Shown here: positions 1 through 14,548 of the stretch, in pieces
How positions within the stretch are numbered: position 1 is the stretch's first letter
Layout of the letters: each line of letters opens with the position of its first letter
DNA from: a virus
IMG/VR virus record: IMGVR_UViG_3300032284_001720
Coordinates: 1-31,925 of that record
Reading direction: 5' to 3' (one strand)
Length of the DNA stretch: 31,925 bases
Translations under genes and position numbers: made by a program
The notes under the pieces: model-generated
The model's input: the letters and a program-made list of their open reading frames with translations, nothing else
What the model was told of the DNA's origin: nothing
Database searches by the model: none

Positions 1-586
1 ATATGGTTCTTACGATATACCTCAACAAAAAATTAAACATTATAAAAATGATTGGAACAGCGAACAATCGATTACTGTTTCTAGATTTGATTCACTTACG
101 ATCGGAGAGAGAAAATATTGGGAGCCTGTTTATGGCTATAATAATATAATTGCTTCTTATAAAAGAAAAGAAAAAGATTGGATTGTAAACACAAATAAGG
201 TTGTGAAGTATACTGTCACTAATACTAATGGGTTTATTAAAGACGAAATATGTACGATATATCTTAATAATAAACTTGGTAAGGGGCAAGTATTATTTGC
301 TTCAGGTACAGAATTATATCTTCAACATGTTTCTGGGTATTATTATGATTCAACAATGACAGAAACTAATAGTATTGTTGGTTCGGAAAGCGAATTATCA
401 ACAGAATTTTCTGCTGTTGAAATATCGGTAAATAATATTCCTGCTGATGAAGAAGTATATTGGACTCCGATAACATATCTTCAGTATGAATTTGATAAAA
501 ATGAATTCAATAAAACAGTACAAATAATTGATAGTTCTCTCGCTCAACAAGCTTCTGATAACTTAAAAGATTTGATGAAGGTATAA
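1..586 (+). CDS. 53: Baseplate wedge subunit, gp53-like (5' partial)
   Basis: The frame is open from base 2 to the stop at 584-586, giving 194 residues. The start lies upstream of the window, and the GTG at 203 is internal to this continuous frame. In T4, gp53 helps close the ring of six baseplate wedges around the hub. Seen here: a central stretch with DSLTIGERKYWEPVYGYNN (about residues 35-53) and a C-terminal segment YWTPITYLQYEFDKNEFNK followed by an IIDSSL.QQ.SDNLKDL tail (about residues 153-192). A 'YW.P.(S/T)Y..YE...NE' motif plus a short helical tail is what I recall from T4-like gp53 C-termini. The visible length is close to T4 gp53 (196 aa). It sits directly upstream of the hub genes with one base between stop and next start. 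The family assignment is by motif memory, without alignment. Confidence 0.6.
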   Translation, partial: YGSYDIPQQKIKHYKNDWNSEQSITVSRFDSLTIGERKYWEPVYGYNNIIASYKRKEKDWIVNTNKVVKYTVTNTNGFIKDEICTIYLNNKLGKGQVLFASGTELYLQHVSGYYYDSTMTETNSIVGSESELSTEFSAVEISVNNIPADEEVYWTPITYLQYEFDKNEFNKTVQIIDSSLAQQASDNLKDLMKV

Positions 587-587
587 A

Positions 588-1823
588 ATGCCAGCTGGTG
601 ATATTAAAATATCAAAATTAAAAGTAGGCGATATCGATTTAACAAATTTTAATCAAGCTACTTATGGCGAGGTTAATATTTTCGAAGATATTTTAAACAT
701 GTATGGCGCTGCATGCGAAGTACAGGTAATAGATCATAGCGACGCTTTAGGTAAAACGAAACTTAATGGTTCTTTTGATAAGGATATAGAAATTGCTTTT
801 TCTTCTGCAGACGGCGGAGGTCAAATAGGCTTTAAGTTTAAATTTTTCGGAAATAAAAATTTACAAGATTCGGCTGATAGTCATGAAGGTGGATTGAAAA
901 ATAAAACATATGAAATAAGAGGGGTTTGTCAAGAGCTTCTTAGTGCACAAAGTAATCCTGTAAAATATTCTGCAGAAGAACCAACAAGTAAAATGGTTGA
1001 GTCTATTTTGAAAAAAGGATTCAAAACAGATAAACAAATTGATATTCAAGAAGAAACAAAAGGTAAAAGACGTTTAGAATTCAGAAACGAACACCCTTTA
1101 AAATGTTTACAGAAATTAAATAACGAACACGTTTCTCAGCAAAATAAATCTTCTGCGTTTGTATGCTTTCAAAGATCAGAAAACGGAAAACAGAAATATA
1201 TATTTGCAACTTTTGAGCATCTCTTTAAGCAATCCGCCGTAGCTACATTGAAACAGGTTACAACTCTAGATAATGGTTCATCTGAAAAAGATAAACAAAA
1301 TGCTATTTTATCTTTTAACGTTTCTGATTCGTTTTTTACACCAACTAGAGGATTTAGTAAAGCAGAACAATATTCTTATAACCCAACAACTGGTAAATCA
1401 GATCAAGTAGCTCAGAAACCTCAAAATTATAGCGTTGCTGGAACTGTAACTTATAAAACACCTCCTACAAATGCTACATCTGTACCAGTTCATACAGTTA
1501 AAGATTCTGCTAATGATAAAACAGCCACAGGAGTTGCAGAAGCTAGAAAAAATAGAACAGATTTTCTTTCTCACTTAACTCAAAATCATGCAACGTTAGA
1601 AGTAATAGGTAATTCGGCAATTAAATTAGGAAGTATAGTAAAATTACAAATACCAAAAAAATCAGATTCAGGAAACGCTGCTGGTGAAACACAATTTAAC
1701 GCAGAAGCTCTTGTAGTTTCTATTAGACATAAAATAAAACCTGCTGGACAATCCCCTAGATATACTATGTTATTAGGTGTTGTTAAAGGTGGGTTCAAAG
1801 AAGGTGGAGGCGGAAATGGCTAA
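588..1823 (+). CDS. Baseplate hub protein, gp27-like (phage late control D type)
   Basis: 411 residues. It is probably the trimeric hub that joins the tail tube to the central spike, the role of T4 gp27 and P2 gpD. The N-terminal half (about residues 20-110) has the pattern of a hub beta-barrel, with a VNIFEDILNMYGAACEVQVID segment. A middle region (about 105-215) has an EIRGVCQELLSAQSNPV / SKMVESILKKGF helix-strand pattern. The C-terminal barrel (about 325-400) has HATLEVIGNSAIKLGSIV, then LVVSIRHKI and YTMLLGVV; a 'GN..I..G..V.L' strand ahead of 'V..I.H' is typical of hub second barrels. The C-terminus is a Gly-rich GGGGNG. An AAGG Shine-Dalgarno lies just upstream of the ATG, and the 3' end overlaps the next start by 8 bases. 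Its place directly before an OB-fold spike protein supports the hub call. Confidence 0.6.
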   Translation: MPAGDIKISKLKVGDIDLTNFNQATYGEVNIFEDILNMYGAACEVQVIDHSDALGKTKLNGSFDKDIEIAFSSADGGGQIGFKFKFFGNKNLQDSADSHEGGLKNKTYEIRGVCQELLSAQSNPVKYSAEEPTSKMVESILKKGFKTDKQIDIQEETKGKRRLEFRNEHPLKCLQKLNNEHVSQQNKSSAFVCFQRSENGKQKYIFATFEHLFKQSAVATLKQVTTLDNGSSEKDKQNAILSFNVSDSFFTPTRGFSKAEQYSYNPTTGKSDQVAQKPQNYSVAGTVTYKTPPTNATSVPVHTVKDSANDKTATGVAEARKNRTDFLSHLTQNHATLEVIGNSAIKLGSIVKLQIPKKSDSGNAAGETQFNAEALVVSIRHKIKPAGQSPRYTMLLGVVKGGFKEGGGGNG

Positions 1824-2118
1824 TTTTTATTTTGCTGAAGTTAGAGACATATTAGATCCTCTTGGTTCCGGAAGAGTTAAAATTAGAAAATATGGCTATC
1901 AAAATGATGAACAAAATATGAAAGATGATAATTTACCATGGGCGTTGCCTTTGCAACCTGTAACTTCTGCTGCAACAGAAAAAGTAGGTTCAACACCTCA
2001 TGGGCTATTAGTTGGTTCTAGAGTTGTTATATCTTATGCAGAAAATGATATAGCAGAACAATATCCAATTATCTTTGGTTCGTTCGCTCGTGGCGGTTTA
2101 GATTCAGGGGACAAATAA
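1816..2118 (+). CDS. Central spike OB-fold protein (gp5 N-terminal domain-like)
   Basis: 100 residues from the ATG at 1816, preceded by a strong GGTGGAGG Shine-Dalgarno. A longer frame from 1777 would begin inside the hub gene without such a site, so I chose 1816. The protein looks like only the OB-fold domain of gp5/VgrG proteins, which seats the spike on the hub. It contains FAEVRDILDPLGSGRVKIR (N-terminal strands, about 5-23), NLPWALPLQPVTSA (about 38-51), the turn VGSTPHGLLVGSRVVISYAE and a closing YPIIFGSFARGG. The 'D.....GRVK.R..G', 'PWA.P' and 'P...G..V...F' pattern is classic for this fold. In T4 the OB domain is fused to lysozyme and to the beta-helix; here the protein stops after the OB domain and overlaps the next gene as TAATG. 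Confidence 0.75.
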   Translation: MANFYFAEVRDILDPLGSGRVKIRKYGYQNDEQNMKDDNLPWALPLQPVTSAATEKVGSTPHGLLVGSRVVISYAENDIAEQYPIIFGSFARGGLDSGDK

Positions 2119-3722
2119 TGGCGATTAGTAAAACAGATATTGATGGTTCGCTTGATAAAATACCAAAAGATAGTTTTGGTATTGATCTTGCTTCTGGCCG
2201 ACCAGGAAATAAAGACGATCATAAAAAAAATGCAATATTACCAGATATTGGCGGTAATCCTGTTGCTAGAGATAAACCTTCTACTGCTAAATTTGCAGAA
2301 GGTAAAAAGATTAAAAACGGAGAAGGTCAGGAAGCTCTTAAAACATTAGTTTCTAAACATGTTCCAATGGCTGATATGCCAACAACTGCTTCTGCTGTTC
2401 CGGGTTTAGATTTAGCAAAACAAATATCTGCAGTTGATCCTTTGGGCAAAGCTCAAGTATTCGCAAATATGGTAAAACAGTTTGCGATGATTAAGGCAAT
2501 TATGAATATTGCTAATTCTTCTGTGCCTGGAGCTCCTTTAAGTTCGACTCAGACAGCTGTTGTTACAGACGCATTTTCAGAAGCTCTTTGTATTCTTTGT
2601 AAAAAATATACATATACTACAGTTGTAAAAATATTAAACAAGGTTTTGGATAACGGTGGGTTTTTACAAATTAATCCAATTTATCAGGATACTGTAAAAG
2701 GCGCTATTTCAAAATTAATTGAAAAAGCAATGATTTTTGGTGAAAATAATATTCCAATTAAACCAACACCTCCTGTAGTTTATGGAAATAATGTACCCTC
2801 TTCTTCTTCAATTTTATCAAGTTTTGATTCAGTTCCGACTCTTGCGATAAAACAATATTATTCTATCGATACTGATCCATATACAGGGTATATAGAATAT
2901 TTAACAAATGATCAAATTACTGTTTATGTAAAAAGAACAGCAACAGATTATCCTTACGAATCAGTAGATGACGAATGCCTTGCTCTTGCTGAAAAAGGAA
3001 TCGCAGATGATTTAGATATATATTTTAGATATCCAGATTATTATTTTATTACTCAACTTATTGACGTAACACCCTTTATTTTAACTCCTACTATTTTAAG
3101 TACCATTTTAGATAAACATAAGGTTCTTCACGAAAATAATGGTATGAATTTCGTTGTTGGTAAAAATAGTAGTTCTTCTTTAATGTCTAATTTGCCTCAA
3201 ATTTTAGGTCTTTTAGGAACAGCGATAAATATTACTAAAACTGATTTCTTACCAAATTCTGGACTTGATGTTGGAGCGGTAGGAAAGGCTCTTGAAAGTT
3301 ACTCTAAAAATATGGCAATGGTAACGATGATGACTCAAAAAGCTAAAACTGCATTTGGGACGCCACCAGGATTGCCAATACCAGCTTTAGGAAGTTTAGC
3401 TGGTGTTTCGGCTCTTGCTGGAGCTCTTGGTGGTCTTGGTATTTCTATTCCTTCTTTAGTTCCTGCTCTTGGTGGTATTTCCGCTGTTACAGGATTAACT
3501 TCTTCTCTTGGAGCTGTTGCTGGTATTACTTCAGCTTTAGGGTCTATAAACAGTGTTAATATAGGTTTGCAAGCATCTGGTCTTTCAATTCCAGCTTTAA
3601 CAGTAAATAGTATTGGTTTATCTCCTGCAAGATCAAATATATCTAAAGCTCTTTTAATTGCGGGAACTACTGAGGTTGCAGTTTCTGCAACTTCTAATAT
3701 TCTTAAAAATATGGGTGTTTAA
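2118..3722 (+). CDS. Unrecognised spike-associated structural protein with hydrophobic Gly/Ala-rich C-terminal region
   Basis: 534 residues. I do not recognise the family. The start is set by the TAATG overlap with the OB-fold gene. The N-terminus (about 1-95) is polar and Lys/Asp-rich. Residues about 95-205 look mostly helical (DPLGKAQVFANMVKQFAMIK, then ALCILCKKYTYTTVVKILNK). A middle segment rich in Tyr/Asp follows (about 240-310). The last 130 or so residues are low-complexity, Gly/Ala/Leu/Ser-rich and hydrophobic (for example GSLAGVSALAGALGGLGISI). No lysozyme catalytic pattern is apparent. It occupies the place between OB domain and beta-helix that lysozyme fills in T4 gp5. From unverified memory, marine cyanomyoviruses carry a large 'VrlC'-type protein in this neighbourhood, which could be related. 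A virion role is inferred from position only. Confidence 0.5.
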   Translation: MAISKTDIDGSLDKIPKDSFGIDLASGRPGNKDDHKKNAILPDIGGNPVARDKPSTAKFAEGKKIKNGEGQEALKTLVSKHVPMADMPTTASAVPGLDLAKQISAVDPLGKAQVFANMVKQFAMIKAIMNIANSSVPGAPLSSTQTAVVTDAFSEALCILCKKYTYTTVVKILNKVLDNGGFLQINPIYQDTVKGAISKLIEKAMIFGENNIPIKPTPPVVYGNNVPSSSSILSSFDSVPTLAIKQYYSIDTDPYTGYIEYLTNDQITVYVKRTATDYPYESVDDECLALAEKGIADDLDIYFRYPDYYFITQLIDVTPFILTPTILSTILDKHKVLHENNGMNFVVGKNSSSSLMSNLPQILGLLGTAINITKTDFLPNSGLDVGAVGKALESYSKNMAMVTMMTQKAKTAFGTPPGLPIPALGSLAGVSALAGALGGLGISIPSLVPALGGISAVTGLTSSLGAVAGITSALGSINSVNIGLQASGLSIPALTVNSIGLSPARSNISKALLIAGTTEVAVSATSNILKNMGV

Positions 3723-3724
3723 TT

Positions 3725-4435
3725 ATGGGTCAACCACCAAATAAAAAAGTTCCTGAATCAGCTGCGCAAACAAAATCTGTTGTTCATCCAGTATATCTTC
3801 ATATGATTACAGATGTTCTAGGACGTATGATTACTACACATGCTAATCCTAATAAACCAAAAGATGCTTTTCATTCTTCAGTAAATCATGATGGTAGTTT
3901 TAACACAGAAGAAATATCTGATTCTTTTAAAGGTATGAAAACTTCTCATACTCATCACGAAAGAAGTAATGCTGGTAGCTCTAGTAAAAATAATGATGGA
4001 CCAGTAGATAGTAGCGCACAAGGAACTAAAAATTCTAATGTTAAAGGTGATTCAGGAGGTGCTACTGGGGGAACTTCTTATAAAGGAGCTAAAAAAGAAA
4101 TAGGCGGTACATCCGAAGGAACAATGTCAACAGTACCAGGAGCGAAAACATATGTTCATTCTGGTGGCGATAGAATATATAAACTTGATAAAAATTGCGA
4201 TGCTCATATAGATGGCGACGACACAAGTACAGTAATGGGTTCTAAAATTGATGCTGTTTATAAAGAAATAGGACTAGTTTCTGTAACAGGTAATATTAGT
4301 GTTAAATCACAAAGCGGCGAAATAAAAATGGAAGCTGCTAAAAAAATAACCTTTAAAGTTGGAACTTCAACTATTGTAATGGAACCAACTCAAATAACAG
4401 TTACAGCGTCAGCTGTTAAATTTAAAAAGGCTTAA
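3725..4435 (+). CDS. Central spike protein, gp5 C-terminal beta-helix-like
   Basis: 236 residues. It probably forms the trimeric needle below the hub. The N-terminus has PVYLHMITDVLGRMITTHAN; a polar, low-complexity Ser/Gly/Asn/His linker follows (about 55-135, including a HTHHE cluster). The C-terminal 100 residues look like a short-period triple-stranded beta-helix as in gp5C and VgrG: YKLDKNCDAHIDGDDTSTV, then VSVTGNISVKSQSGEIKME, then AAKKITFKVGTSTIVMEP and ITVTASAVKF. The alternating 'I.V....G.I.M.A...ITF' strands are typical of that fold. It starts 2 bases after the previous stop and is followed at once by a PAAR-type gene, as expected for a spike shaft with a separate tip. T4 has this segment as the C-terminus of gp5, so its independence here is noteworthy. 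Confidence 0.65.
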   Translation: MGQPPNKKVPESAAQTKSVVHPVYLHMITDVLGRMITTHANPNKPKDAFHSSVNHDGSFNTEEISDSFKGMKTSHTHHERSNAGSSSKNNDGPVDSSAQGTKNSNVKGDSGGATGGTSYKGAKKEIGGTSEGTMSTVPGAKTYVHSGGDRIYKLDKNCDAHIDGDDTSTVMGSKIDAVYKEIGLVSVTGNISVKSQSGEIKMEAAKKITFKVGTSTIVMEPTQITVTASAVKFKKA

Positions 4436-4437
4436 TA

Positions 4438-4725
4438 ATGGCTTACTCTCATAGGGATACAGATTCAAGAGCTTGTGGTGCAACTACTATCGTGTCCGGA
4501 CAAGATTTTGTTACTGTTGATGATAAGCTTTGGTCAGTTAATGGGGATGATAATACGGATGGTGGCGGAGCTTTAAGTACATCGCACAGTTGGCTTACTA
4601 TAGCCGACAAAGGAATAATTGTAAATGGCGATTCAGCAGCTTCTGATTCTCTTTGTTTTCCTATCGGCGGAAATCACTGTGCGCCGTCCGCAACTGGATA
4701 CGATAATTTAATAGAGGTAACATAA
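4438..4725 (+). CDS. PAAR-like spike tip protein (gp5.4-like)
   Basis: 95 residues. PAAR proteins cap phage and type VI secretion spikes with a small metal-binding cone. The sequence begins with HRDTDSRACGATTIVSGQDFV, matching the usual opening 'D...CG..T.V.G...V', followed by VDDKLWSVNGDD, a second half WLTIADKGIIVNGDSAASDS, and CFPIGGNHCAPSATG near the end. Candidate metal ligands are Cys13, His50, Cys73, His80 and Cys81; PAAR proteins characterised so far use three His and one Cys. The length matches stand-alone PAAR proteins (about 95-100 aa). An AAAAAGG ribosome-binding site overlaps the end of the spike gene. Its position directly after the beta-helix gene supports the call. Confidence 0.75.
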   Translation: MAYSHRDTDSRACGATTIVSGQDFVTVDDKLWSVNGDDNTDGGGALSTSHSWLTIADKGIIVNGDSAASDSLCFPIGGNHCAPSATGYDNLIEVT

Positions 4726-4727
4726 AA

Positions 4728-5150
4728 ATGGCATTAACAAGAGCAGAAACAGTAAATGGTGTTAAAAAGAAAACTGAGTTTTTCTCTGATTTTCTTAACA
4801 GTTTTGCAAAAACGCCATATGGGAATCAGCTTGGTAGAGTAACCAATGAACAGTCTGTAAATCAAGCTCTTAAAAACTTATTATTAACGAATATTGGGGA
4901 GAGGTTGTTTCAGCCAACAACTGGTTCTACAATTATGTCTTCTTTGTTTGAAATTAATGATCAAGCCAGTTTATCTACGCTCGAATTTTATATTCAAAAT
5001 ACAATAAAAAACGATGAGCCAAGAGTTAACCCTTTGAAAATTGAAGCTCTTTTTGTTAATGATTATGAAATTCAAATAAATATTGTTTATTCTTTAATAA
5101 ATAATCCAGCACCTGTAAGTTTCAGTTTTCTCTTAAAAAGAGCAAGATAA
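4728..5150 (+). CDS. 25: Baseplate wedge subunit gp25 (GPW/gp25 family)
   Basis: 140 residues (T4 gp25 is 132). It forms the sheath-initiator part of the inner baseplate and contacts gp6 and gp53. The family signature EPR is present at residues 97-99 in IKNDEPRVN. It is preceded by ALKNLLLTNIGERLFQPTTG (about 48-67), whose 'N.GER...P..G' is the second hallmark, and followed by a strand-rich end that closes with VSFSFLLKRAR. An AGAGGT Shine-Dalgarno lies upstream, and the stop abuts the gp6 start with no spacer. The order gp25-gp6 is conserved across T4-like phages. Despite its old name, the family has no demonstrated lysozyme role here. Confidence 0.9.
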   Translation: MALTRAETVNGVKKKTEFFSDFLNSFAKTPYGNQLGRVTNEQSVNQALKNLLLTNIGERLFQPTTGSTIMSSLFEINDQASLSTLEFYIQNTIKNDEPRVNPLKIEALFVNDYEIQINIVYSLINNPAPVSFSFLLKRAR

Positions 5151-6920
5151 ATGGCCAATAGTTCTTTACAACTTAGTTCGTTAGATTTCGATACGTTAAA
5201 ACAGAATTTTAAAGATTATCTTTCATCACAATCAACTTTTAAAGATTATGATTTTGATGGGTCGAATATCAACGTTCTCTTAGATGTAATGACTTATAAT
5301 TCATATTTAAATTCTTTCTATTTGAATATGATTGCATCCGAAATGTTTCTTGATACTGCTCAAAAACTAGATTCTGTAATTTCTCATGCTAAAGAATTAA
5401 ATTATTTACCTAGATCTAATCGCTCTTCAAAAGCTGTTATAAATGTTGATATTACAACAACTGGTATAGAAAACCCTTTTGTTTTACCAAAAGGAACAGT
5501 TTTTAGTGGTTTGAATTCAAACGGGTTTTTTAATTTTGTTACAGATAAAGAACAATATTTCTTATCTTCAGATAAAATATACAGAATAAGCGACTTAGAA
5601 ATTTACGAAGGATCTTATATTCAAGATTCATTTATAATGGATTATTCTTCAGAAACTCAAAAGTTTATCTTATCTAATTTTCAAATAGATACTAATAGTT
5701 TAGAAATTACTATTACAGAAAATAGTGTTAATACTATATTTTCTTTTGCTGAAAACCTTTACGATTTGAATTCTCTAAGTAACGTTTACTTTTTACAGGC
5801 TACTTCTAATCAACAATACGAACTTATATTTGGCGATAATATTTTTGGTAGAAAACCAAAAAATGGAGCTATTATAACTGCAAATTATAGAATTACTAGT
5901 GGTTCTGATGGTAATGGAATTACAACTTTTACATTAGACTCTGATTTAGGTCCAATTAATGATGGAACAGCTATTCCTGGCGATGTTATTACAGTTTCTG
6001 GAGCTCTGAGTGGAGCGAATGCAGAAGGTATCGAATCCATTCGTTTCAACGCTCCAAGACATTATCAAACACAAGGTCGTTGCGTTACAAGTAACGATTA
6101 TGAAGTTTTGGTTCTACAAAATTATCCAGAAATTCAATATGTAAATGTTTATGGCGGAGAAATAACAAATACAGAAGTAAATTTTGGAACAGTATTCATA
6201 TCTCCTAGTACATTTTCCGGTAACGTATTAACAGATACAAGAAAAGCTGATATTGTTGCTTATGTAAATAAGCTTTCTCCTATCGGAATAAGGGTTAAGA
6301 TTATAGATCCAGATTATCTTTATATTACTATTAATTCGATAATTCATACAAACTTAGCATCTACAACTTCTTCGCCAACATCGATAATAAACAAAGTTAC
6401 GAATGCTATTAAATCATATAATACTGATAATCTTCAAAATTTTAATACTGCGTTCAGACTATCTCGTTTAGAGCAGCAAATCAACGAAGCTGATATTGGT
6501 ATATTAAGTAATGAAAGTACAACTCAAATTTATAGACTATTTTCGCCTGATATAAATCAGCCAACAATTATAACATGCGATTTAAACAACTCTATTGAAA
6601 GAGGTTCTGTAGTAAGTTCTAAATTTATTACAAATGGTAAAAATTATATATTCACTGATTATATTGAGGACGTTTCAACAGGTAATGGAACGTTATATCA
6701 ATACGAACAAGAAAATAATGTCATAAAAAATTACACTGAAGTTGGAACAATTAACTATACTACAGGTTTGATATATATTAATTCTATCGTATATTTTAAT
6801 ATTTTTGGTGGATTAAAAATATTTGCAACGACTAATAATAAAGATATATATTGTAGAAATAATAGTATAATAGAAATTGATACAATTTCAGGTTTGACTC
6901 TTACAACAGTTAACGAATAA
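5151..6920 (+). CDS. 6: Baseplate wedge subunit gp6 (baseplate J-like)
   Basis: 589 residues (T4 gp6 is 660). It dimerises in each wedge and forms the inner ring that changes conformation on sheath contraction. The N-terminus has the standard opening: LDFDTLKQNFKDYLSSQ (about 8-24), DFDGSNINVLLDVMTYNSYL (about 34-53), then NMIASEMFLDTAQ and HAKELNYLPRSNRS. The middle has LIFGDNIFGRKPKNGAIIT and VSGALSGANAEGIESIRFNAP, which resemble the baseplate J core. C-terminally, SNDYEVLVLQNYPEIQYVNV and RKADIVAYVNKLSPIG precede a beta-rich tail. It abuts gp25 upstream and overlaps the next gene as TAATG downstream, consistent with a single translationally coupled wedge operon. Confidence 0.88.
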   Translation: MANSSLQLSSLDFDTLKQNFKDYLSSQSTFKDYDFDGSNINVLLDVMTYNSYLNSFYLNMIASEMFLDTAQKLDSVISHAKELNYLPRSNRSSKAVINVDITTTGIENPFVLPKGTVFSGLNSNGFFNFVTDKEQYFLSSDKIYRISDLEIYEGSYIQDSFIMDYSSETQKFILSNFQIDTNSLEITITENSVNTIFSFAENLYDLNSLSNVYFLQATSNQQYELIFGDNIFGRKPKNGAIITANYRITSGSDGNGITTFTLDSDLGPINDGTAIPGDVITVSGALSGANAEGIESIRFNAPRHYQTQGRCVTSNDYEVLVLQNYPEIQYVNVYGGEITNTEVNFGTVFISPSTFSGNVLTDTRKADIVAYVNKLSPIGIRVKIIDPDYLYITINSIIHTNLASTTSSPTSIINKVTNAIKSYNTDNLQNFNTAFRLSRLEQQINEADIGILSNESTTQIYRLFSPDINQPTIITCDLNNSIERGSVVSSKFITNGKNYIFTDYIEDVSTGNGTLYQYEQENNVIKNYTEVGTINYTTGLIYINSIVYFNIFGGLKIFATTNNKDIYCRNNSIIEIDTISGLTLTTVNE

Positions 6921-9900
6921 TGTCAATAGAAAAATTTATTTCGCCTTTTATTGAATCCCAGTTTCCCCAGTTCTATCAAGAAGAGGGTCCGCAATTTATT
7001 GAATTCGTTAAAGCGTATTATTCTTGGTTGGAATCTCAAGGCGAAATAATTAATGAAAGTCGTTCTCTTTTAGAGTATAGAGACATTGATACGACATTAA
7101 ATAATTTTATTGTTTACTTTAAAAATAAATATATTAACTCTATTCCAGAAAATATTCTTGCTGATAAATCTTTATTAATTAAACATATATTAGATCTTTA
7201 TCGTTCAAAAGGATCTGACCGTTCTTATTCTCTTCTTTTCAAGCTTTTATTTAATGAAGATATAGAAGTATATACTCCTGGTAAAGATGTATTTAAATTA
7301 TCGGATGGCGATTGGAATGTACCAAGATATATTGAACTTACAGATTGTCCATATTTTGTAAATACGATCGGTCATAAAATTTACTCAACAGGAACTTTTG
7401 CAACAGCTGTTGTTGATAATTATTTTGTTAAAGTTGTTAATAATAAGTATATAAATGTTTTAATGTTAAATGATGTTAAAGGCAATTTTACATACGGCGA
7501 AAAAATACTTTGCGAAGCTGTTCCAGAAATTACTATTGAAAATGGACCAATTATTATTGGTTCTCTTTCTTCTATTGGTATTACTGATGGTGGTCTTAAT
7601 TATAATGTTGGTGATTTAGTAAACGTTAATAATAGTGGCGTTGGTGGTGTTGCAAGAGTTGTTTCGACAACAAGTAGAAACGGCCAAGTTCAGTTTACGC
7701 TATTAGATGGAGGATCTGGTTTTTCTCTTGACGCCATAGTAAATGTTGTAGGCGAGACTAGAGAAATAGATTCTATTACCTTAGAAAGTTTTGTTCACGT
7801 TGATACTAATAAAACTGAAGGAACTTTTGACCTTTATGAAAATATATATTTTTCAAATAATGTAATCGCAAACAATAAAATATCTGGAGTTGTTCTTGAT
7901 TTAGAAAGTAATACTGTTACAGGTAATAGTACATTAAGTATTCCATTAAATGCGGGCGATCTAGTTTATTTTGAAAGTAATAACCAAATAAAAGTTTCGA
8001 CGTCAAACGTTAATATTTCTACTAATATAATAACGATAACTAATCACGGTTATTCAACTGGTGATTCTATTTACTATTTAAGTATCGGTTCTCCTTCTAT
8101 ACAGTATCTTTCTGATACTGGTACAATCGATTTAGTTGACGATCAAGAATATTTCGTAATAAAAGTCAGTAACGACACATTTAAACTTGCTTTAAATAAA
8201 GATAATGCTACTATTGGCACAGCTATAGATTTAAATGGTACTGGTAACGCAGATCAAATATTTAAAAATACAGTTTTAAACGCTAACGTTATTGTTAGAA
8301 TTGTTTATACTAAAGAAAACGATCATTCTTTCGTTCTTACACAAGTACCATCTTGGTCAAGCGCAAACGCAAGTTCTGGTATTATAACAGGTAATGGCGT
8401 TATACGAGATTTTGATTACCTTACTGGTAATGTCGTTATTTCTAATTCTTCTGTGCATAAAGTTATTACAGATATTGGTCCTCCAGAAGTATCGATATTA
8501 CCAATCGATTATCTTACATCAGATCATAAAATAATTGCTTCTAAATCCCAAGCATCAACAGTTATTAATACTTCTGACGATGTTAGATACGTTATTACTG
8601 TAAAACCAGAACCTGTTAAAAATAGTTCTAATAAAATTGTTTCTTATAAAGGACATATGTTAGAAAACAGAGATACAGTAAGAATAGATTATATCTTAGG
8701 TGTTAATAATCTTAATATTCAAAATTATGGTTATTATGTAAAAATTGTAAATTCTTATGCATTCGAATTATTTACTGATTATGATCTAGATGCAAATACT
8801 TCAACAAATTATTATACGGATTCACATAAAAAAGCAAATTACCAAGTTCCTGTATTAGATAATCCTACATTATATTATATTTTAAATACGGGTTATTCGT
8901 TTCAAAATCCAGGTGGCGTTGGCGCTACTTTTAAAGTTGGTAGTATCGTAAATAAAGAAATTTATAGACTTAATACAGATCATATTGAAGATTATGTAAA
9001 TGAAAGAATGGAAAGTTCTGCTAGAGTAGGTGGTGGCTGGGATATACATCTTTCAGATGTTGTCGGGACATTTAGTTCTGGCGATATATTAGTTATGGAT
9101 GAAGAGCCAGTTAAACGTTTTGATTCAAGTAAAATTTCTATTGAAACTTTGATGTCTAATGGCGAATTTATGTTTAATACAAGTTTAGGTATCAATAATC
9201 TAACTGTAGTAAATACTGACGAAACCTATATTGAAGTTGTATCAACAGATCCGTCTTTAATTGAAACTGGCGTAAATCATCCTCAGTTATCTGGCCCTCT
9301 ACCAAGAACAGTATTAAGAAGCGCAGTTAATGTTGATATAAATCAAATTTATATACTAAATCATGGTTATACAACTGGCGATCCTACTTATTATAAACCT
9401 CATGGTGGCGCTTCAATCCAAATTTCGCAAGCTGGATTTAATACAGATCAAGATGGTTATCTACTAGATAATCAGGTTTATTATGTAAATGTTATAGACG
9501 GAAGCCATATTAAACTTGCACTTGATAAAAACCATGCTATCTGGGGAATAACTTATAATATTATTGATGTAGGTAATGATAACCAAACTTTTAGAAGAGA
9601 AAACGATCAGAGATATTATTTTCCTGGTAATCTTTTAGATAGCACAGGAAATGAATTTTCGGCAGGTTCTGCATATCACGTCGATGCTATCATGGACGAT
9701 GAAGTTATAAGTTTTTCCGGTGGAGAGTGTACTTCGGTTATTGGTAATGTAGTAGAAGTACAACAAATAGAAGTATCACCGCCTGTTGTTGGGTATCCTG
9801 TTTATAATGGAATTTTAAGATCTATTGGTCATAGATTTGTACAATATAATCCTTATTCGCCATATGATGGATTAAATCTTGCTCTTGGTACTCCATGTAT

Positions 9901-11344
9901 ACTTTATTTACCAGCTTTTTCTATACCGCCGATAAATACTCCAATAACTTTTCAGGTATATGATAATCAAGAGTATCCAGAACCAACACTTCCATATGGG
10001 TTAACACCTGGTCAGACATATTATTCTAAATTTACAGATACTCTTGACGAAGAACTATTACATTATCAAATTCATTTTTCTGCTTCTCCGTTTATATTTG
10101 TAAATCCTGCAATTGTTAATATTACTGATAACACAATACATATTCCTAATCATGGTTTCGTTACAGGGGATTCTTTGTATTACGTAAGTAAGAGCGATGT
10201 TGATCAAGTAATTACATCAAAAATAACATATAATGATGGAACAGAGCACGAATTAGAAGATGAAAAAGGTGACCCACTTAATCCATTAGTTGATCCACCA
10301 TATGGAGTTATTCGCATAGATGATAATTATTTTAAAATTGCTTTGACTCCGGCAGAAGCTTCATCAGGAAATTATTTAAACTTAACTGGGGCAGGAAATA
10401 TACATCAAAGTGTTAGAAAAACAGCTCTTGTTGGTTGTGGCGCTGAATATGCTCCCCCAGGAACCACTGGAGCTTACGAATATCCTCCTTATGATGGTTC
10501 CGATCCTTATCATCCTGGAACCAAATACGAAGTATATTTTGATAAAGCACATGGAACTATTATTAAAACCGATAGATTAACTCATTACGATTTTCCAAAA
10601 ATTACTGTCGCCCCATATGATGATAGAGAAAATATGGATACTATTATTTCTGATGCGCTTACATATGTAGATAAGGAAGTAGGTGATATCGCCAGACTTA
10701 GCAACATTAATAGCGGCGAAGGTTATGCAAATGATCCTAAAGTTGTAGTTATCGAACCATTAATTTATGAATTAAGAGAAGTTGGTAAAAATGGCGGATA
10801 TAAAGGATTTAATGCAAACGTTGCGGCTAAGGCTGGTTATGCTGGTGGTATTGTAACTGCGATTGAAATTGTAGATAGTGGTTATGGATATGAAAGAGAT
10901 CAACAGGTAGCATTAACAAATGAAAATAATCCTTATGGTATTATTGGAACAACAGTAGTTGATCTAGGCGGTAAAGGTAAGGGTTATTGGAAAGGTAATC
11001 AAGGTTTCTTGAGCGATCAAATATATCTTGAAGATAGTTACTATTATCAGAAGTTTTCTTATGAAATTATTGCATCAAGAATGTTAAATACATATGAAAA
11101 ATATGTAAAAGATTTAGTACACCCTTCCGGAATGAAGCTTTTTGGAAGGTTTGTAAATAAGAACGAATTAGAACAAGAAAATGCAGAAGTAATGTATAGT
11201 AGCTTAAATAAGAATGTAATATCAATTATTGAGCCACCTCCTGTCGTTAATAAGATACTTACAGTTGATAATACTAAGGAAGGTGATGATGAAACAGTAT
11301 TCACTTCTGACCGTTTACTAGCGCCTTACGAACAAACTCAATAG
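6920..11344 (+). CDS. Large baseplate wedge protein in gp7 position, with inserted repeat modules
   Basis: 1474 residues (T4 gp7 is 1032). The N-terminus FPQFYQEEGPQFIEFVKAYY (about 16-35), then RSLLEYRDIDTTLNNF and HILDLYRSKGSDRSYSLLFK, followed by a YTPGKDVFKLSDGDW segment, is a pattern I associate with marine T4-like wedge proteins annotated as gp7 or 'virion structural'. The C-terminus closes with GKGYWKGNQGFLSDQIYLED and a long helix ending HPSGMKLFGRF. In between are 'GG.NY.VGDLVNV' type beta repeats and three copies of an approximately 95-residue module marked by NHG(Y/F).TGD, centred near residues 375, 814 and 1077. Residues about 300-565 share a split domain with the 2054-residue protein downstream. 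It starts on TAATG and ends 12 bases before the next gene. Equivalence to gp7 is inferred from order (25-6-7) rather than clear homology. Confidence 0.6.
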   Translation: MSIEKFISPFIESQFPQFYQEEGPQFIEFVKAYYSWLESQGEIINESRSLLEYRDIDTTLNNFIVYFKNKYINSIPENILADKSLLIKHILDLYRSKGSDRSYSLLFKLLFNEDIEVYTPGKDVFKLSDGDWNVPRYIELTDCPYFVNTIGHKIYSTGTFATAVVDNYFVKVVNNKYINVLMLNDVKGNFTYGEKILCEAVPEITIENGPIIIGSLSSIGITDGGLNYNVGDLVNVNNSGVGGVARVVSTTSRNGQVQFTLLDGGSGFSLDAIVNVVGETREIDSITLESFVHVDTNKTEGTFDLYENIYFSNNVIANNKISGVVLDLESNTVTGNSTLSIPLNAGDLVYFESNNQIKVSTSNVNISTNIITITNHGYSTGDSIYYLSIGSPSIQYLSDTGTIDLVDDQEYFVIKVSNDTFKLALNKDNATIGTAIDLNGTGNADQIFKNTVLNANVIVRIVYTKENDHSFVLTQVPSWSSANASSGIITGNGVIRDFDYLTGNVVISNSSVHKVITDIGPPEVSILPIDYLTSDHKIIASKSQASTVINTSDDVRYVITVKPEPVKNSSNKIVSYKGHMLENRDTVRIDYILGVNNLNIQNYGYYVKIVNSYAFELFTDYDLDANTSTNYYTDSHKKANYQVPVLDNPTLYYILNTGYSFQNPGGVGATFKVGSIVNKEIYRLNTDHIEDYVNERMESSARVGGGWDIHLSDVVGTFSSGDILVMDEEPVKRFDSSKISIETLMSNGEFMFNTSLGINNLTVVNTDETYIEVVSTDPSLIETGVNHPQLSGPLPRTVLRSAVNVDINQIYILNHGYTTGDPTYYKPHGGASIQISQAGFNTDQDGYLLDNQVYYVNVIDGSHIKLALDKNHAIWGITYNIIDVGNDNQTFRRENDQRYYFPGNLLDSTGNEFSAGSAYHVDAIMDDEVISFSGGECTSVIGNVVEVQQIEVSPPVVGYPVYNGILRSIGHRFVQYNPYSPYDGLNLALGTPCILYLPAFSIPPINTPITFQVYDNQEYPEPTLPYGLTPGQTYYSKFTDTLDEELLHYQIHFSASPFIFVNPAIVNITDNTIHIPNHGFVTGDSLYYVSKSDVDQVITSKITYNDGTEHELEDEKGDPLNPLVDPPYGVIRIDDNYFKIALTPAEASSGNYLNLTGAGNIHQSVRKTALVGCGAEYAPPGTTGAYEYPPYDGSDPYHPGTKYEVYFDKAHGTIIKTDRLTHYDFPKITVAPYDDRENMDTIISDALTYVDKEVGDIARLSNINSGEGYANDPKVVVIEPLIYELREVGKNGGYKGFNANVAAKAGYAGGIVTAIEIVDSGYGYERDQQVALTNENNPYGIIGTTVVDLGGKGKGYWKGNQGFLSDQIYLEDSYYYQKFSYEIIASRMLNTYEKYVKDLVHPSGMKLFGRFVNKNELEQENAEVMYSSLNKNVISIIEPPPVVNKILTVDNTKEGDDETVFTSDRLLAPYEQTQ

Positions 11345-11356
11345 GGAAATTAAAAG

Positions 11357-14300
11357 ATGTCGCAGAAAATAATTAATGTCGGTAATGCTCCTGATGATGG
11401 TGCAGGCGATCCGCTCCGCACGTCGATGCAAAAGGTAAATGATAATTTTACCGAATTTTATACTGCGATAACGCCAACTGGTAAAAACGTTGGTATTGGT
11501 ACATCAACACCAGATTCTAGATTAACAGTTGTCGCTGATACTGTTGGTAATGCTGTTAGAATTACACAAACTGGTACAGGAAACGCTCTAGTTGTTGAAG
11601 ATAGCACAAACCCAGACGCAACATCTTTCGTTATTAATAGCGATGGTAATGTTGGTATAGGTAAAAATGTTCCTATCTATCCATTGGATATAAATGGTGA
11701 TATTAATACTTCTGGTAAATTACGTTTTAATTCCGGAACAAAATATATCGGATTTGAAAATGGAGTTTATAACTTACCAGCAGCTGATTTAACAATAAAT
11801 GGTTCTAAAGCAATAACAGTAAGTAATTTTAATTTATATGCACCAACTTTATCTGGTGCTGGTGCTTATGGACTTTGGGATATTACAGTTGCTGATGCAA
11901 CATATTCTACAGGTTCTAGATCAAATACATTTACGATTGGTACAGGTTCGACTTTTGTCGCTAATGGAAATTTTGGTATTAATAAAACATCACCACAGGC
12001 TAAACTTCATGTTGGTGGTAATGCGATCGTAAATAATAATTTAACTGTAAATGGTAGTATTATAGCTGGTTTTTCGACTTCTGCAGATGTTGGCGTTTAT
12101 GGTATATCTAATAGTTGGTATGGAGTCCAGGGACAATCAAATACTAACAATGGCGTAGTTGGAATTTCTAATAGTGCCTATGGCGTTTTTGGCCAATCAA
12201 ACATAACTTCTGGTGGTTATTTTATATCAAATACTGGTATCGCAGTAGAAGGCGTATCAAATAGTAATTTTGGTGTATATGGTAGTTCGAACACAACTGT
12301 TGGTGTTGCAGGTTATTCAAATAGCTGGGTTGGTGTATGGGGATATTCTAACGTTTCTTATGGCGTATACGCTCAGTCGAATAGCGGTCCTCCACTTTGG
12401 GTAGGAAACGGCGCTGTTGAATTCGTAAGCGTTGCAGCTAATGGTAATCTTGGTATTGCGAACTCAATTCCAGCTCATAAGTTATCAGTAAATGGTCCTT
12501 CTTATTTTGGAGCTGCATTACAGTTAAATGGAGCATTACGTGTTGGTACTGGAACTGGTTCAACTGGAACTGCAGGTCAAGTATTAACTTCTTCTGGCGC
12601 TACAGGAGCTCCAACATGGATAACAATTCCAACTAGTGGTGGTGGAGGTGGAGGTGGAGACACCATCGTAAATAATTTGTCGGAAGGTGATGGTCAAATA
12701 CATTCTCAATTATTTACATCTTCTAGTACATGGACTGTACCGCATGGAGTAGCAAGAGTAAAAGTTTATGTTATCGGCGGCGGTGCTGGCGGCGGTGGCG
12801 GTTATGATGATGGAGATAATCCTATTTCTGGTTCACCAGGTGGTTCTGGTGGATTCGCTGTTGGTGAATATGATATAATTCCTGGTGACGTATATACTAT
12901 TACAGTCGGTCAAGGTGGACATGCAAATAATTTTAGTGGAGGAAGTGGATATACTGGTCAATATGCAGGAGCTTCTGGCGGAACTTCTTCTTTTACTTTA
13001 TCTGGAGGTTCAACTTTAATTTCTGCTACAGGCGGTACAGGTACTGCTTTAGGTTCTAGTACAATCGTACAAGGCACTGGTTCTGGTGGCACTTTAAGAA
13101 ATTCTAGTTTTATTAATAATGGTGCTGGAGGTTCTTTCAACAATCAAACTGATTTTCCTGTAAATTTTGCTTCTGGTATTTTTAATGGAGGGCATAGAAA
13201 CGCTTCTCTTGATTCTTCAGTAAGTGAAAGAACATCATGGACAATTAGTTCCGAAGCAGCGCCTGGTATTGGCGGTTTAGCAACAACTGGTTCTGCAAGA
13301 GCACAAGGTGGTGTTGATGGTATTGTTTATCTTGAATGGGTAGAAGCTGCTAAAGGTTTCCAGACAGCAAACGTACAAACATTTGATACTTCAGGAACAT
13401 GGCATAAGCCAGACGGTCTTGATGGTTCTTCTTTTGTTTTAGTTCAAATGTGGGGCGGCGGTGCAGGTGGTATAATACATGGATTAGGCGGAGGAGGTGG
13501 CGGTTATACCTCAGCTTGGTATTCTCTAAGTGAATTAAATTCTACAGAAACTGTTACAGTTGGTCATGGAGGAGCTGGTGGCTATAACGGAAGTGGGTCT
13601 ATATCTACATATAATGGAGGCGATACTAATTTTAAAAATGGTTATGCGTATGGAGGAACAACTGGTGATTGGAATCTTAATACTTTAGGATTTGGTGGAG
13701 GTGGTGCTTTTAGCGGAGGGACTGGCGGTGGATTCGCTACAGAAGCAGGTGGTTTTTCTGAAAATGGAGGCACTAGCATTTATGGCGGTGGTGGTGGCGC
13801 TGGTGTTAATGAATATGGTTCTTATAATGGAACAGGTGGTTCTTCTATGTTCGGAGGAGCTGGCGGTAGTGGAAGTTCCGGAAATGGAACTGTTCCAGGA
13901 GGTGGTGGTGCAGGACAAACTGGTTCTGGTGCACATGGTAGAGTTATTGTAACTATATTTGGTGCAAGTACATCATCTGGCGGAGGAAATGGTTTTACAA
14001 CTATACCAGATACAGTAACATTTACTACTACAGGTTCTCATAGTTTTGTTGTACCTGCTAACGTTTCTAAAGTAAAAGTAACAGTAGTTGGTGGAGGTGG
14101 CGGCGCAGCATCAACTTATTATTCTCCCGGAAGTGCTTATTTTGCAGGTGGTGGCGGCGGAACAGCGATAAAAGTAATTAAGAATCTTGTTCCTGGTACA
14201 AGCATTCCAATCGTTGTTGGCGCTGCTGGTTTAACTAATACTTTACCAGGTGGAGGAACTTCTTCTTTCGGAACTTATTGTTCTGCAACTGGAGGTACTT

Positions 14301-14548
14301 GTGGCTATGGAGGCGGAGCTCCTTCTTTTGCTGGCGGTGGTGGAATAGGAATTAATGGTGATATTAATCTATCAGGAACTCCTGGAACTCCAGCTCTTGG
14401 AATTTCTGGATTGAGTGGTTCTGACAATCCAACTTATACGCCTATTTCTGATGGTATACCAGGAACATCATATCTTGGTTTAAGTTATGGCGGTGGTGGA
14501 ACAAATGGAATTCCAGCTACTTCTGGTATAGTTATTGTTGAATACTAA
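11357..14548 (+). CDS. Tail fibre/adhesin with 10-residue repeats and three Gly-rich domains
   Basis: 1063 residues. The N-terminal IINVGNAPDDGAGDPLRTSM (residues 5-24) followed by VNDNFTEFY is a widespread phage fibre attachment motif. Next come typical fibre shaft turns, NVGIGTSTPDSRLTV and NVGIGKNVPIYPLDINGDI. Residues about 250-349 are ten exact 10-residue repeats. Residues about 448 to the end form three tandem Gly-rich domains. Each opens with a strand of the type 'FT.SSTWTVP.GV..VKV.VIGGGAGG' and closes with a 'G.V.V' strand (EWV, VTIFG, VEY endings). Gly-rich domains of this kind resemble receptor-binding adhesins, so the distal part probably touches the host surface. No S74 autocleaving chaperone domain is visible. 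It sits between the gp7-position gene and the gp8-like gene, with AGGGAAA upstream of the ATG. Confidence 0.7.
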   Translation: MSQKIINVGNAPDDGAGDPLRTSMQKVNDNFTEFYTAITPTGKNVGIGTSTPDSRLTVVADTVGNAVRITQTGTGNALVVEDSTNPDATSFVINSDGNVGIGKNVPIYPLDINGDINTSGKLRFNSGTKYIGFENGVYNLPAADLTINGSKAITVSNFNLYAPTLSGAGAYGLWDITVADATYSTGSRSNTFTIGTGSTFVANGNFGINKTSPQAKLHVGGNAIVNNNLTVNGSIIAGFSTSADVGVYGISNSWYGVQGQSNTNNGVVGISNSAYGVFGQSNITSGGYFISNTGIAVEGVSNSNFGVYGSSNTTVGVAGYSNSWVGVWGYSNVSYGVYAQSNSGPPLWVGNGAVEFVSVAANGNLGIANSIPAHKLSVNGPSYFGAALQLNGALRVGTGTGSTGTAGQVLTSSGATGAPTWITIPTSGGGGGGGDTIVNNLSEGDGQIHSQLFTSSSTWTVPHGVARVKVYVIGGGAGGGGGYDDGDNPISGSPGGSGGFAVGEYDIIPGDVYTITVGQGGHANNFSGGSGYTGQYAGASGGTSSFTLSGGSTLISATGGTGTALGSSTIVQGTGSGGTLRNSSFINNGAGGSFNNQTDFPVNFASGIFNGGHRNASLDSSVSERTSWTISSEAAPGIGGLATTGSARAQGGVDGIVYLEWVEAAKGFQTANVQTFDTSGTWHKPDGLDGSSFVLVQMWGGGAGGIIHGLGGGGGGYTSAWYSLSELNSTETVTVGHGGAGGYNGSGSISTYNGGDTNFKNGYAYGGTTGDWNLNTLGFGGGGAFSGGTGGGFATEAGGFSENGGTSIYGGGGGAGVNEYGSYNGTGGSSMFGGAGGSGSSGNGTVPGGGGAGQTGSGAHGRVIVTIFGASTSSGGGNGFTTIPDTVTFTTTGSHSFVVPANVSKVKVTVVGGGGGAASTYYSPGSAYFAGGGGGTAIKVIKNLVPGTSIPIVVGAAGLTNTLPGGGTSSFGTYCSATGGTCGYGGGAPSFAGGGGIGINGDINLSGTPGTPALGISGLSGSDNPTYTPISDGIPGTSYLGLSYGGGGTNGIPATSGIVIVEY
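12104..12403 (+). repeat. Ten tandem 30-bp coding repeats (x-S-N-x-x-x-G-V-x-G)
   Basis: Ser-Asn pairs recur with a spacing of exactly 30 bases: the Ser codons checked at 12107, 12137, 12167 and 12197 extend in phase to 12377. The repeat encodes ISNSWYGVQG, QSNTNNGVVG, ISNSAYGVFG and so on, ending with QSNSG. The third unit after ISNSAYGVFG (QSNITSGGYF) and the next (ISNTGIAVEG) are the most divergent. Codons vary between units, so the repeat is maintained at protein level. One 10-residue turn per repeat suggests a beta-solenoid or trimeric beta-prism shaft. Confidence 0.9.
12700..14545 (+). repeat. Three tandem Gly-rich domains in the fibre
   Basis: Domain 1 spans about 12700-13350, domain 2 about 13370-13965 and domain 3 about 14008-14545. 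Each begins with an amphipathic 'strand-W/F-.VP-V..VKV' unit followed by GGGAGGGGG, GGGAGG or GGGGGAAS. Each continues with poly-Gly loops separated by aromatic residues, and each ends in a short hydrophobic strand. Sequence identity between copies is low outside these marks, so they are old duplications or independently acquired relatives rather than a recent DNA duplication. Confidence 0.75.

Follow-up and report, generated by a model that had tools for sequence, protein, structure and literature searches.

The central spike of the T4-type baseplate encoded in IMG/VR record IMGVR_UViG_3300032284_001720 is divided among separate genes, and the slot that lysozyme holds in the T4 spike protein gp5 is filled by a conserved 534-residue protein, P534, that bears no hydrolase signature. 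The stretch analyzed (the window: positions 1 to 31,925 of the record, 31,925 bases) contains, in order, the end of a gp53-like gene and genes for a hub protein, an OB-fold protein, P534, a beta-helix protein, a PAAR-like tip protein, gp25, and gp6 (Table 1). The arrangement is conserved in related viral contigs, in some of which the OB and P534 sequences are fused in one open reading frame (ORF), and relatives carry beside gp26 a gene for a wall hydrolase, which we call HYD. We favor, with moderate confidence, the interpretation that a single T4-type spike is built from several polypeptides, with P534 as a structural part in the lysozyme slot and digestion of the wall assigned to the separate HYD protein.

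That the spike is split over consecutive, tightly packed genes had been proposed in an initial annotation made from the window alone, and the four ORFs, of 100, 534, 236, and 95 residues, are indeed present as described. The hub and OB genes overlap by 8 bases, the OB and P534 genes have one base in common (taatg), and the three borders that follow, up to gp25, are gaps of 2, 2, and 2 bases. (In the ORF list the OB frame opens further upstream, at a GTG; counted from the ATG at 1816, the protein has 100 residues.) The gene order of the spike block is repeated in tens of related viral contigs and hence reflects neither chance nor misassembly.

Table 1. Baseplate genes at the left end of the window
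Feature	Position	Strand	Evidence
C-terminal part of gp53-like baseplate wedge gene	203..586	+	phrog_232 baseplate wedge subunit, E 2.3e-5; longer relatives
gp27-type hub protein, 411 aa	588..1823	+	phrog_350 tail protein, E 1e-24
gp5 N-terminal OB-fold protein, 100 aa, own gene	1816..2118	+	PF06714 (Gp5_OB), E 4.9e-8, over cut-off
P534, conserved protein in gp5 lysozyme slot, 534 aa	2118..3722	+	without Pfam or PHROG family
gp5C-type beta-helix spike protein (predicted), 236 aa, own gene	3725..4435	+	family profile matches to VgrG, A-1(L) spike, T4 gp5
PAAR-like tip protein, 95 aa	4438..4725	+	position; weak profile matches
gp25 baseplate wedge protein	4728..5150	+	PF04965, E 1.4e-12
gp6 baseplate wedge	5151..6920	+	phrog_219, E 6.1e-151

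When the window's P534 was the only query, a viral scan returned one locus; a seven-row profile returned 94 confirmed relatives, and 80 of these were retained. Pooling the loci from the scans with the window gave 87 loci with a P534 ORF (the window and 86 others), some of them overlapping segments of the same contig (L009, L046, and L050, for example); 42 are non-redundant. (One further locus, L029, a record of 158,790 bases, was left out because the frames of its genes for the hub, P534, the beta-helix protein, and gp6 are broken into short pieces, as from uncorrected sequencing errors.) In all 79 loci that reach a recognized gene downstream of P534, that gene encodes the beta-helix protein. 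On the upstream side, 59 of the 87 loci have OB as its own gene and ten have it fused to P534 in one ORF; in 12 others the hub gene is the nearest recognized gene, and six loci end before any is reached. The corresponding numbers for the 42 non-redundant loci are 30, six, four, and two. Fusion of P534 to the needle was seen in none of the 87. Six of the 12 loci in which the hub was nearest were read (L093, L099, L101, L104, L107, and L111), and all have a 90- to 199-residue ORF or N-terminal extension before P534 that is OB-like to the eye, without a match to the OB profile.

The state of fusion between OB and P534 has changed repeatedly. On a tree of 41 rows, in which L107 was scored as fused (its first ~95 residues look OB-like), at least four changes are required, three of them forced by well-supported branches. 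L107 (one ORF) and L111 (two ORFs), which are sister rows with end branches of ~0.02, differ in state, and thus at least one change was recent. A further instance came from a fold search of predicted viral proteins, in which three relatives of P534 stood out (E 5.7e-24, 3.0e-8, and 1.4e-3); the second of these, of 543 residues, is annotated "Protein Gp5, N-terminal OB-fold domain containing protein" and is an independent repeat of the fusion. The single ORFs joining OB to P534 are our strongest reason for calling P534 the middle part of a gp5, and with the gene order they bear out the placement of the 534-residue protein in the position of the lysozyme.

P534 itself appears to be confined in its distribution. 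Four stretches in bacterial genomes matched its sequence pattern and none was a relative, three members used as queries against 50,697 phage records gave no match, and searches of open-access papers in PubMed Central turned up no description of a P534-type spike protein. Two near-copies, L122 (609-3185) and L124 (6224-8800), encode 858-residue relatives of P534 with an insert in the middle, which in L122 consists of DUF4214 repeats (E 3.1e-27).

As judged from sequence comparison, P534 may be very distantly related to T4-type gp5. The fused L120 protein was considered as a link, since it matched T4-type gp5s and the first rows of these matches ran to query residue 284-396, past the OB domain. 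When its first 117 residues (the OB part) were removed, however, the best of three T4-type gp5s matched at only E 0.012 over 40 residues, and we therefore take the extension past OB to have been carried by OB. Likewise, P534 profiles reached T4-type gp5s at E 0.0073 at best, where OB gave 1e-24 or better. L002-L007 were among the loci used to build the profiles for P534, the hub, OB, the beta-helix, and PAAR; matches to those loci are partly by construction, and only phages outside that set are cited in support from these profiles. The E-values of the locus-wide profile searches come from small sets.

The initial annotation had also seen no lysozyme in the spike, and the family-wide searches agree. 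The window's P534 had no match in Pfam and chance-level matches in PHROG (best E 0.028), and a search of the PDB sequences for P534 gave nothing of note (best E 0.48). An alignment was made of 40 of the 42 non-redundant rows, leaving out L122, with its insert, and the partial L080; these 40 members matched Pfam (best E 0.023) and PHROG (best E 0.013) at chance level only, and in none of them was a peptidoglycan-hydrolase family found. The same was true of all 32 members of the beta-helix family, and none of the four spike proteins of the window matched any hydrolase family. Nor did an ordinary gp5 turn up elsewhere in the relatives, there being a single Gp5_OB place in each of ten long related records of 58-159 kb (fragments, some of them near-copies). 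Among the 40 aligned rows, Thr89, Asp107, and Gly348 are invariant, Asp253, Pro254, Gly257, Tyr247, and Tyr258 are present in 39, and Glu292 is present in 33. No column of His or Cys reaches half of the rows, and P534 therefore lacks the usual site of a zinc or cysteine peptidase. In the reading that we favor, P534 is most likely a structural, non-enzymatic module of the spike.

What, then, cuts the wall? Thirteen records were searched for hydrolases (the window, the ten long records, L011, and L009; some are near-copies). The classical lysozyme family PF00959 and M23 peptidases were found in none of the 13, and Phage_lysozyme2 (PF18013) was found in seven, in frames of 673-699 residues on the strand opposite to OB and 6.1-6.3 kb from it. 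The record of the window had no PF00959 or PF18013 match. The HYD gene comes after gp26 (named by its similarity to gp26 of S-PM2), at the end of a divergent block, and its product consists of an N-terminal coiled coil followed by peptidoglycan-hydrolase domains; the N-terminal part shared among HYD proteins is only ~100-165 residues long. From the loci we selected 21 copies of at least 500 residues, some being near-copies and many cut at the edge of the locus; other near-copies, as well as pieces under this length (such as L067, L104, L114, and L124), were left out. Seventeen of the 21 pass the Pfam cut-off for a hydrolase family (Phage_lysozyme2, SLT_3/SLT, Glucosaminidase, Amidase_2, Hydrolase_2, or M15/VanY), counting that of L107, which was over the cut-off in one scan and under it in another. 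Two more (L045 and L100) have only the motif of M15 peptidases. In addition to the 21, L117 and L120 contain only the start of the corresponding gene, after an ORF resembling a membrane protein, and just past the end of each locus the record contains Peptidase_M15_4, in frames 1199 and 999 residues long, respectively.

The HYD protein of L045 matters most because the hub and P534 of this locus are 84% and 63% identical to those of the window. The zinc site of M15 peptidases follows the motif [ST]xHxxGxAxD ... H, and both the motif and the later His are invariant in all four aligned rows of the L045 domain. The first seven Foldseek rows for an AlphaFold2 (AF2) model of the domain (mean predicted local distance difference test score [pLDDT] 69) were zinc peptidases and endolysins (E 2.0e-3 to 6.1e-2, probability 0.69-0.99), which we take to be of the M15/LAS type. 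A weak sequence match to the Ply500 endolysin (E 0.12), behind three chitoporin rows taken as chance, agrees with this. Thus, the L045 protein has the motif and, to judge from the model, likely the fold of an M15 peptidase. With lysozyme, transglycosylase, glucosaminidase, amidase, and/or M15 domains encoded beside gp26 in the relatives, there is no need to invoke the different way of passing the cell wall that the initial annotation had suggested, and its interpretation as a whole is only partly supported. Wall hydrolysis is probably not missing in this group of phages; rather, the wall enzyme seems to have been relocated, not lost.

Is HYD a part of the particle? Its position agrees with that of p073 of Ochrobactrum phage vB_OspM_OC (OC) and p207 of Synechococcus phage S-PM2, and the lysozyme domain agrees as well in the case of S-PM2; the OC protein near gp26 had no match in Pfam. 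(S-PM2 p207 [L004 1636-5139] is a hypothetical 1167-residue protein beside gp26/gp51 with matches to Phage_lysozyme2 and ADP-ribosyltransferase, E 1.3e-5.) In phages of Rhizobium and Agrobacterium, hydrolase domains like those of HYD are found in proteins annotated as tape measure, tail, or structural proteins. HYD is on this account a plausible, though not proven, virion protein, and we infer that it is present in the virion.

The remaining spike proteins fit a split gp5. The match of the OB protein to phrog_430, "baseplate hub subunit and tail lysozyme," has E 1.5e-20 and is limited to the OB part. On its own, the window's 236-residue protein matched DUF2345 only weakly, at 7.2e-5 and 23.1 bits where the cut-off is 30.7. 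The profile of its family (32 rows, of which 26 contain DUF2345) matched VgrG (6sjl, 9.1e-7), the central spike of A-1(L) (8kea_D, 1.7e-4), and residues 383-546 of T4 gp5 (1.9e-3). A second beta-helix profile, from the locus survey, matched two T4-type gp5s; in the gp5 of Acinetobacter phage 133 the match starts at residue 394 (E 5.4e-10). From these matches the protein is predicted to be a T4-like C-terminal triple-stranded beta-helix. Given that the T4 gp5 precursor is cut between residues 351 and 352 (accessible text of PMC3004832) and that the needle profile aligns from residue 383, the gene border lies close to the border between the T4 proteins.

The 95-residue protein had no PAAR (PF05488) match in Pfam and matched the PAAR family of PHROG at E 0.13. 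The profile of its family matched a 94-residue PDB chain named UpfC (9vyi, 1.5e-4), and phmmer matched the 95-residue protein to a 96-residue OC protein beside gp25 (4e-14). Thus, of the identities first assigned, the OB-only protein and the beta-helix stand, whereas the PAAR-type tip is better described as PAAR-like by position and pattern, and not as a proven PAAR protein. The tip gene is exchanged among close relatives: the window has the 95-residue type (4438-4725), L009 has a PAAR_motif-like protein (5671-5979; 2.2e-5, 25 bits, cut-off 27), and L001, the nearest relative by P534, has no tip gene in the 13 bases between its beta-helix gene and gp25 (3584-3598).

In the model that we favor, the OB domain would dock on the gp27-type hub, and P534 would form a module between OB and the needle that joins or braces the spike. 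The beta-helix protein would be the needle, the counterpart of gp5C, and the PAAR-like protein its tip, so that the division into genes would do partly at the gene level what T4 does by proteolysis. HYD, encoded divergently beside gp26 ~6 kb upstream and outside the window, would digest the wall by means of exchangeable glycosidase and peptidase/amidase slots behind its coiled coil, and P534 may dock this hydrolase.

Several observations weigh against this model. The window stops before the position of HYD, whose presence in this particular phage is deduced from its relatives. Even there, HYD could be a lysis enzyme instead of a part of the tail. Of the 21 copies, that of L063 has only a sub-threshold match to Hydrolase_2, and that of L109 has no hydrolase signal. 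The N-terminal profile of HYD gave E 4 for OC p073 and S-PM2 p207, and this profile therefore does not support HYD as their demonstrable orthologue. The L045 protein had no match in Pfam, its modeled domain had no Foldseek row at E 0.001 or better, and the VIA-align rows, all below Z 8, were led by Hedgehog proteins, with Z up to 7.1 as compared with 3.9-6.6 for M15 enzymes. Hedgehog proteins belong to the same fold class as these M15-type peptidases, and we took the VIA-align rows to indicate fold class, rejecting a Hedgehog function for the domain. As to P534, its own AF2 model is mediocre (mean pLDDT 60.9, with core residues 141-310 mostly at ~80), and the absence of a fold match (best Foldseek E against the PDB 0.4; no VIA-align row of Z 8 or more) is correspondingly weak evidence. 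In addition, the acidic residues Asp107, Asp253, and Glu292 are conserved.

P534 might instead be a mere spacer, fixing how far the needle lies from the hub, with the split being functionally neutral. In favor of this, ACP17, V45v66, and HTVC008M have OB and needle alone with no middle domain, but we consider it doubtful: the core motifs PTTA, VDP, and DPYPGY are kept across proteins that are 21-83% identical to that of the window, which suggests more than a spacer. We assign a similarly low likelihood to the idea that P534 is a new spike module that is active in infection, either as an enzyme of a new fold or as a docking and release device that carries a separate hydrolase with the needle; if the latter were true, needle, adaptor, and enzyme would constitute an exchangeable injection set. 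It seems improbable that peptidoglycan is degraded by P534 itself, as an enzyme with an unrecognized fold, and that HYD serves another purpose, such as lysis from within. Enzymes do lie behind OB elsewhere (an M15 domain and lysozyme2 in OC, CHAP in Atu_ph04, lysozyme2 in Cr30, a sub-threshold VanY in Melnitz, and, per the accessible text of PMC3004832, lysozyme in T4), and the three acidic residues are conserved, but the absence of hydrolase families, of conserved His or Cys, and of a Foldseek match argues against it, and HYD genes already supply hydrolases. Equally improbable is a membrane-active or translocated P534, the C-terminal part of which would meet the inner membrane or be injected before the DNA: the last 140 residues are 5% charged and 41% Gly/Ala/Ser in the window, but 20-26% charged in L062, L093, L099, L104, L111, and L118, and the highest 19-residue hydropathy means of the 40 rows are only 1.24-1.88 at varying places, on which grounds we rejected a transmembrane segment as a trait of the family.

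Comparison with known systems places our structural reading of P534 in context. Contractile spikes (T4, type VI secretion, and R-type tailocins) are usually described as OB plus needle with an optional enzyme. The type VI spike protein VgrG by definition unites hub, OB, and needle in one chain, whereas in the window they are separate ORFs. The block shares with T4 gp5 the OB domain, the beta-helix needle, the gp27-type hub partner, and the middle slot, but differs in that its parts are separate genes and not a single precursor and that P534, not lysozyme, occupies the slot. In T4, after cleavage, needle and OB plus middle part are likewise separate chains (accessible text of PMC3004832).

A similar layout is found in Methylophilales phage Melnitz EXVC044M, in which a split spike, with an OB protein of 346 residues, a beta-helix protein of 667 residues, and a PAAR protein, lies upstream of gp25 and gp6; it differs in having a VanY-like stretch behind OB in the same ORF (1.1e-4, below cut-off) and no P534 match. 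A second motif, SQHNTGNAVD, is present near the end of the Melnitz needle protein (L139 10619-13662). A search of the Melnitz paper returned no passage on gp5, the OB domain, the baseplate hub, or a peptidase. OC and Caulobacter phage Cr30 have related baseplate neighbors and gp5s that start with OB, but these are single polypeptides with Phage_lysozyme2 behind OB, to which OC adds Peptidase_M15_3. In S-PM2 (Kyanoviridae), gp5 matches only OB, as in the window, and Phage_lysozyme2 is in the 1167-residue protein beside gp26/gp51, but gp5 is one 981-residue protein without a P534 match. Finally, the Anabaena myophage A-1(L) has an enzyme-free OB and beta spike, with hydrolases on the hub protein (accessible text of PMC10966104); it is thus similar in placing the enzymes on another part of the baseplate and different in that its spike is one protein and its hub protein carries the enzymes as domains. 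The word "lysozyme" was not found in the accessible text of PMC3037559, which covers 26 T4-like genomes.

PF18013 is found in gp5 in Cr30 and OC, in proteins other than gp5 in S-PM2 and S-H38, and in HYD in the matching P534 records. Among 11 comparison records, S-H38 has two PF18013 places, Cr30, OC, and S-PM2 have one each, and seven have none. The enzyme thus occupies the gp5 slot in some records and a different gene in others, and no record examined has it in both. Given the precedents for split or lysozyme-free spikes (Melnitz, A-1(L), HTVC008M, ACP17, and V45v66), the window adds a new protein family and not a new kind of machine. The slot between OB and needle accepts a widespread, previously undescribed protein that is not a lysozyme, and a family found only in uncultured phages is thereby given a place. 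The slot can become a gene of its own several times, a different gene of the tail region, one whose enzyme slots are exchangeable, can carry the wall-cutting domains, and the question of whether an enzyme must be on the needle becomes testable.

The flanking genes are those of a T4-type baseplate. The gp53-like gene starts outside the window, its complete relatives being mostly ~280-300 residues long. The hub family profile matched the hub-position genes of Cr30 (6.2e-56), HTVC008M (2.8e-47), and S-H38 (1.7e-45), all of them outside the set used to build it, and had no match among the PDB sequences. By gp6, the cultured phage ranked first in the "phages" collection was Cr30, at 37.0% identity. 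Beyond gp6 lie three large genes. The last of these (14586-20129) encodes an 1847-residue protein with a degenerate repeat, of which a 79-nt core occurs five times and a 35-nt core six times ("YYISFVNSSSFALS"-like), with copies spaced 264-342 or 1617 nt apart. The first (6920-11344) encodes a 1474-residue protein with peptides that by eye resemble this repeat, and the middle one (11357-14548) encodes a 1063-residue, probable fiber-type protein in which the glycine-rich domain PF21722 matches in three stretches (E 2.8e-14).

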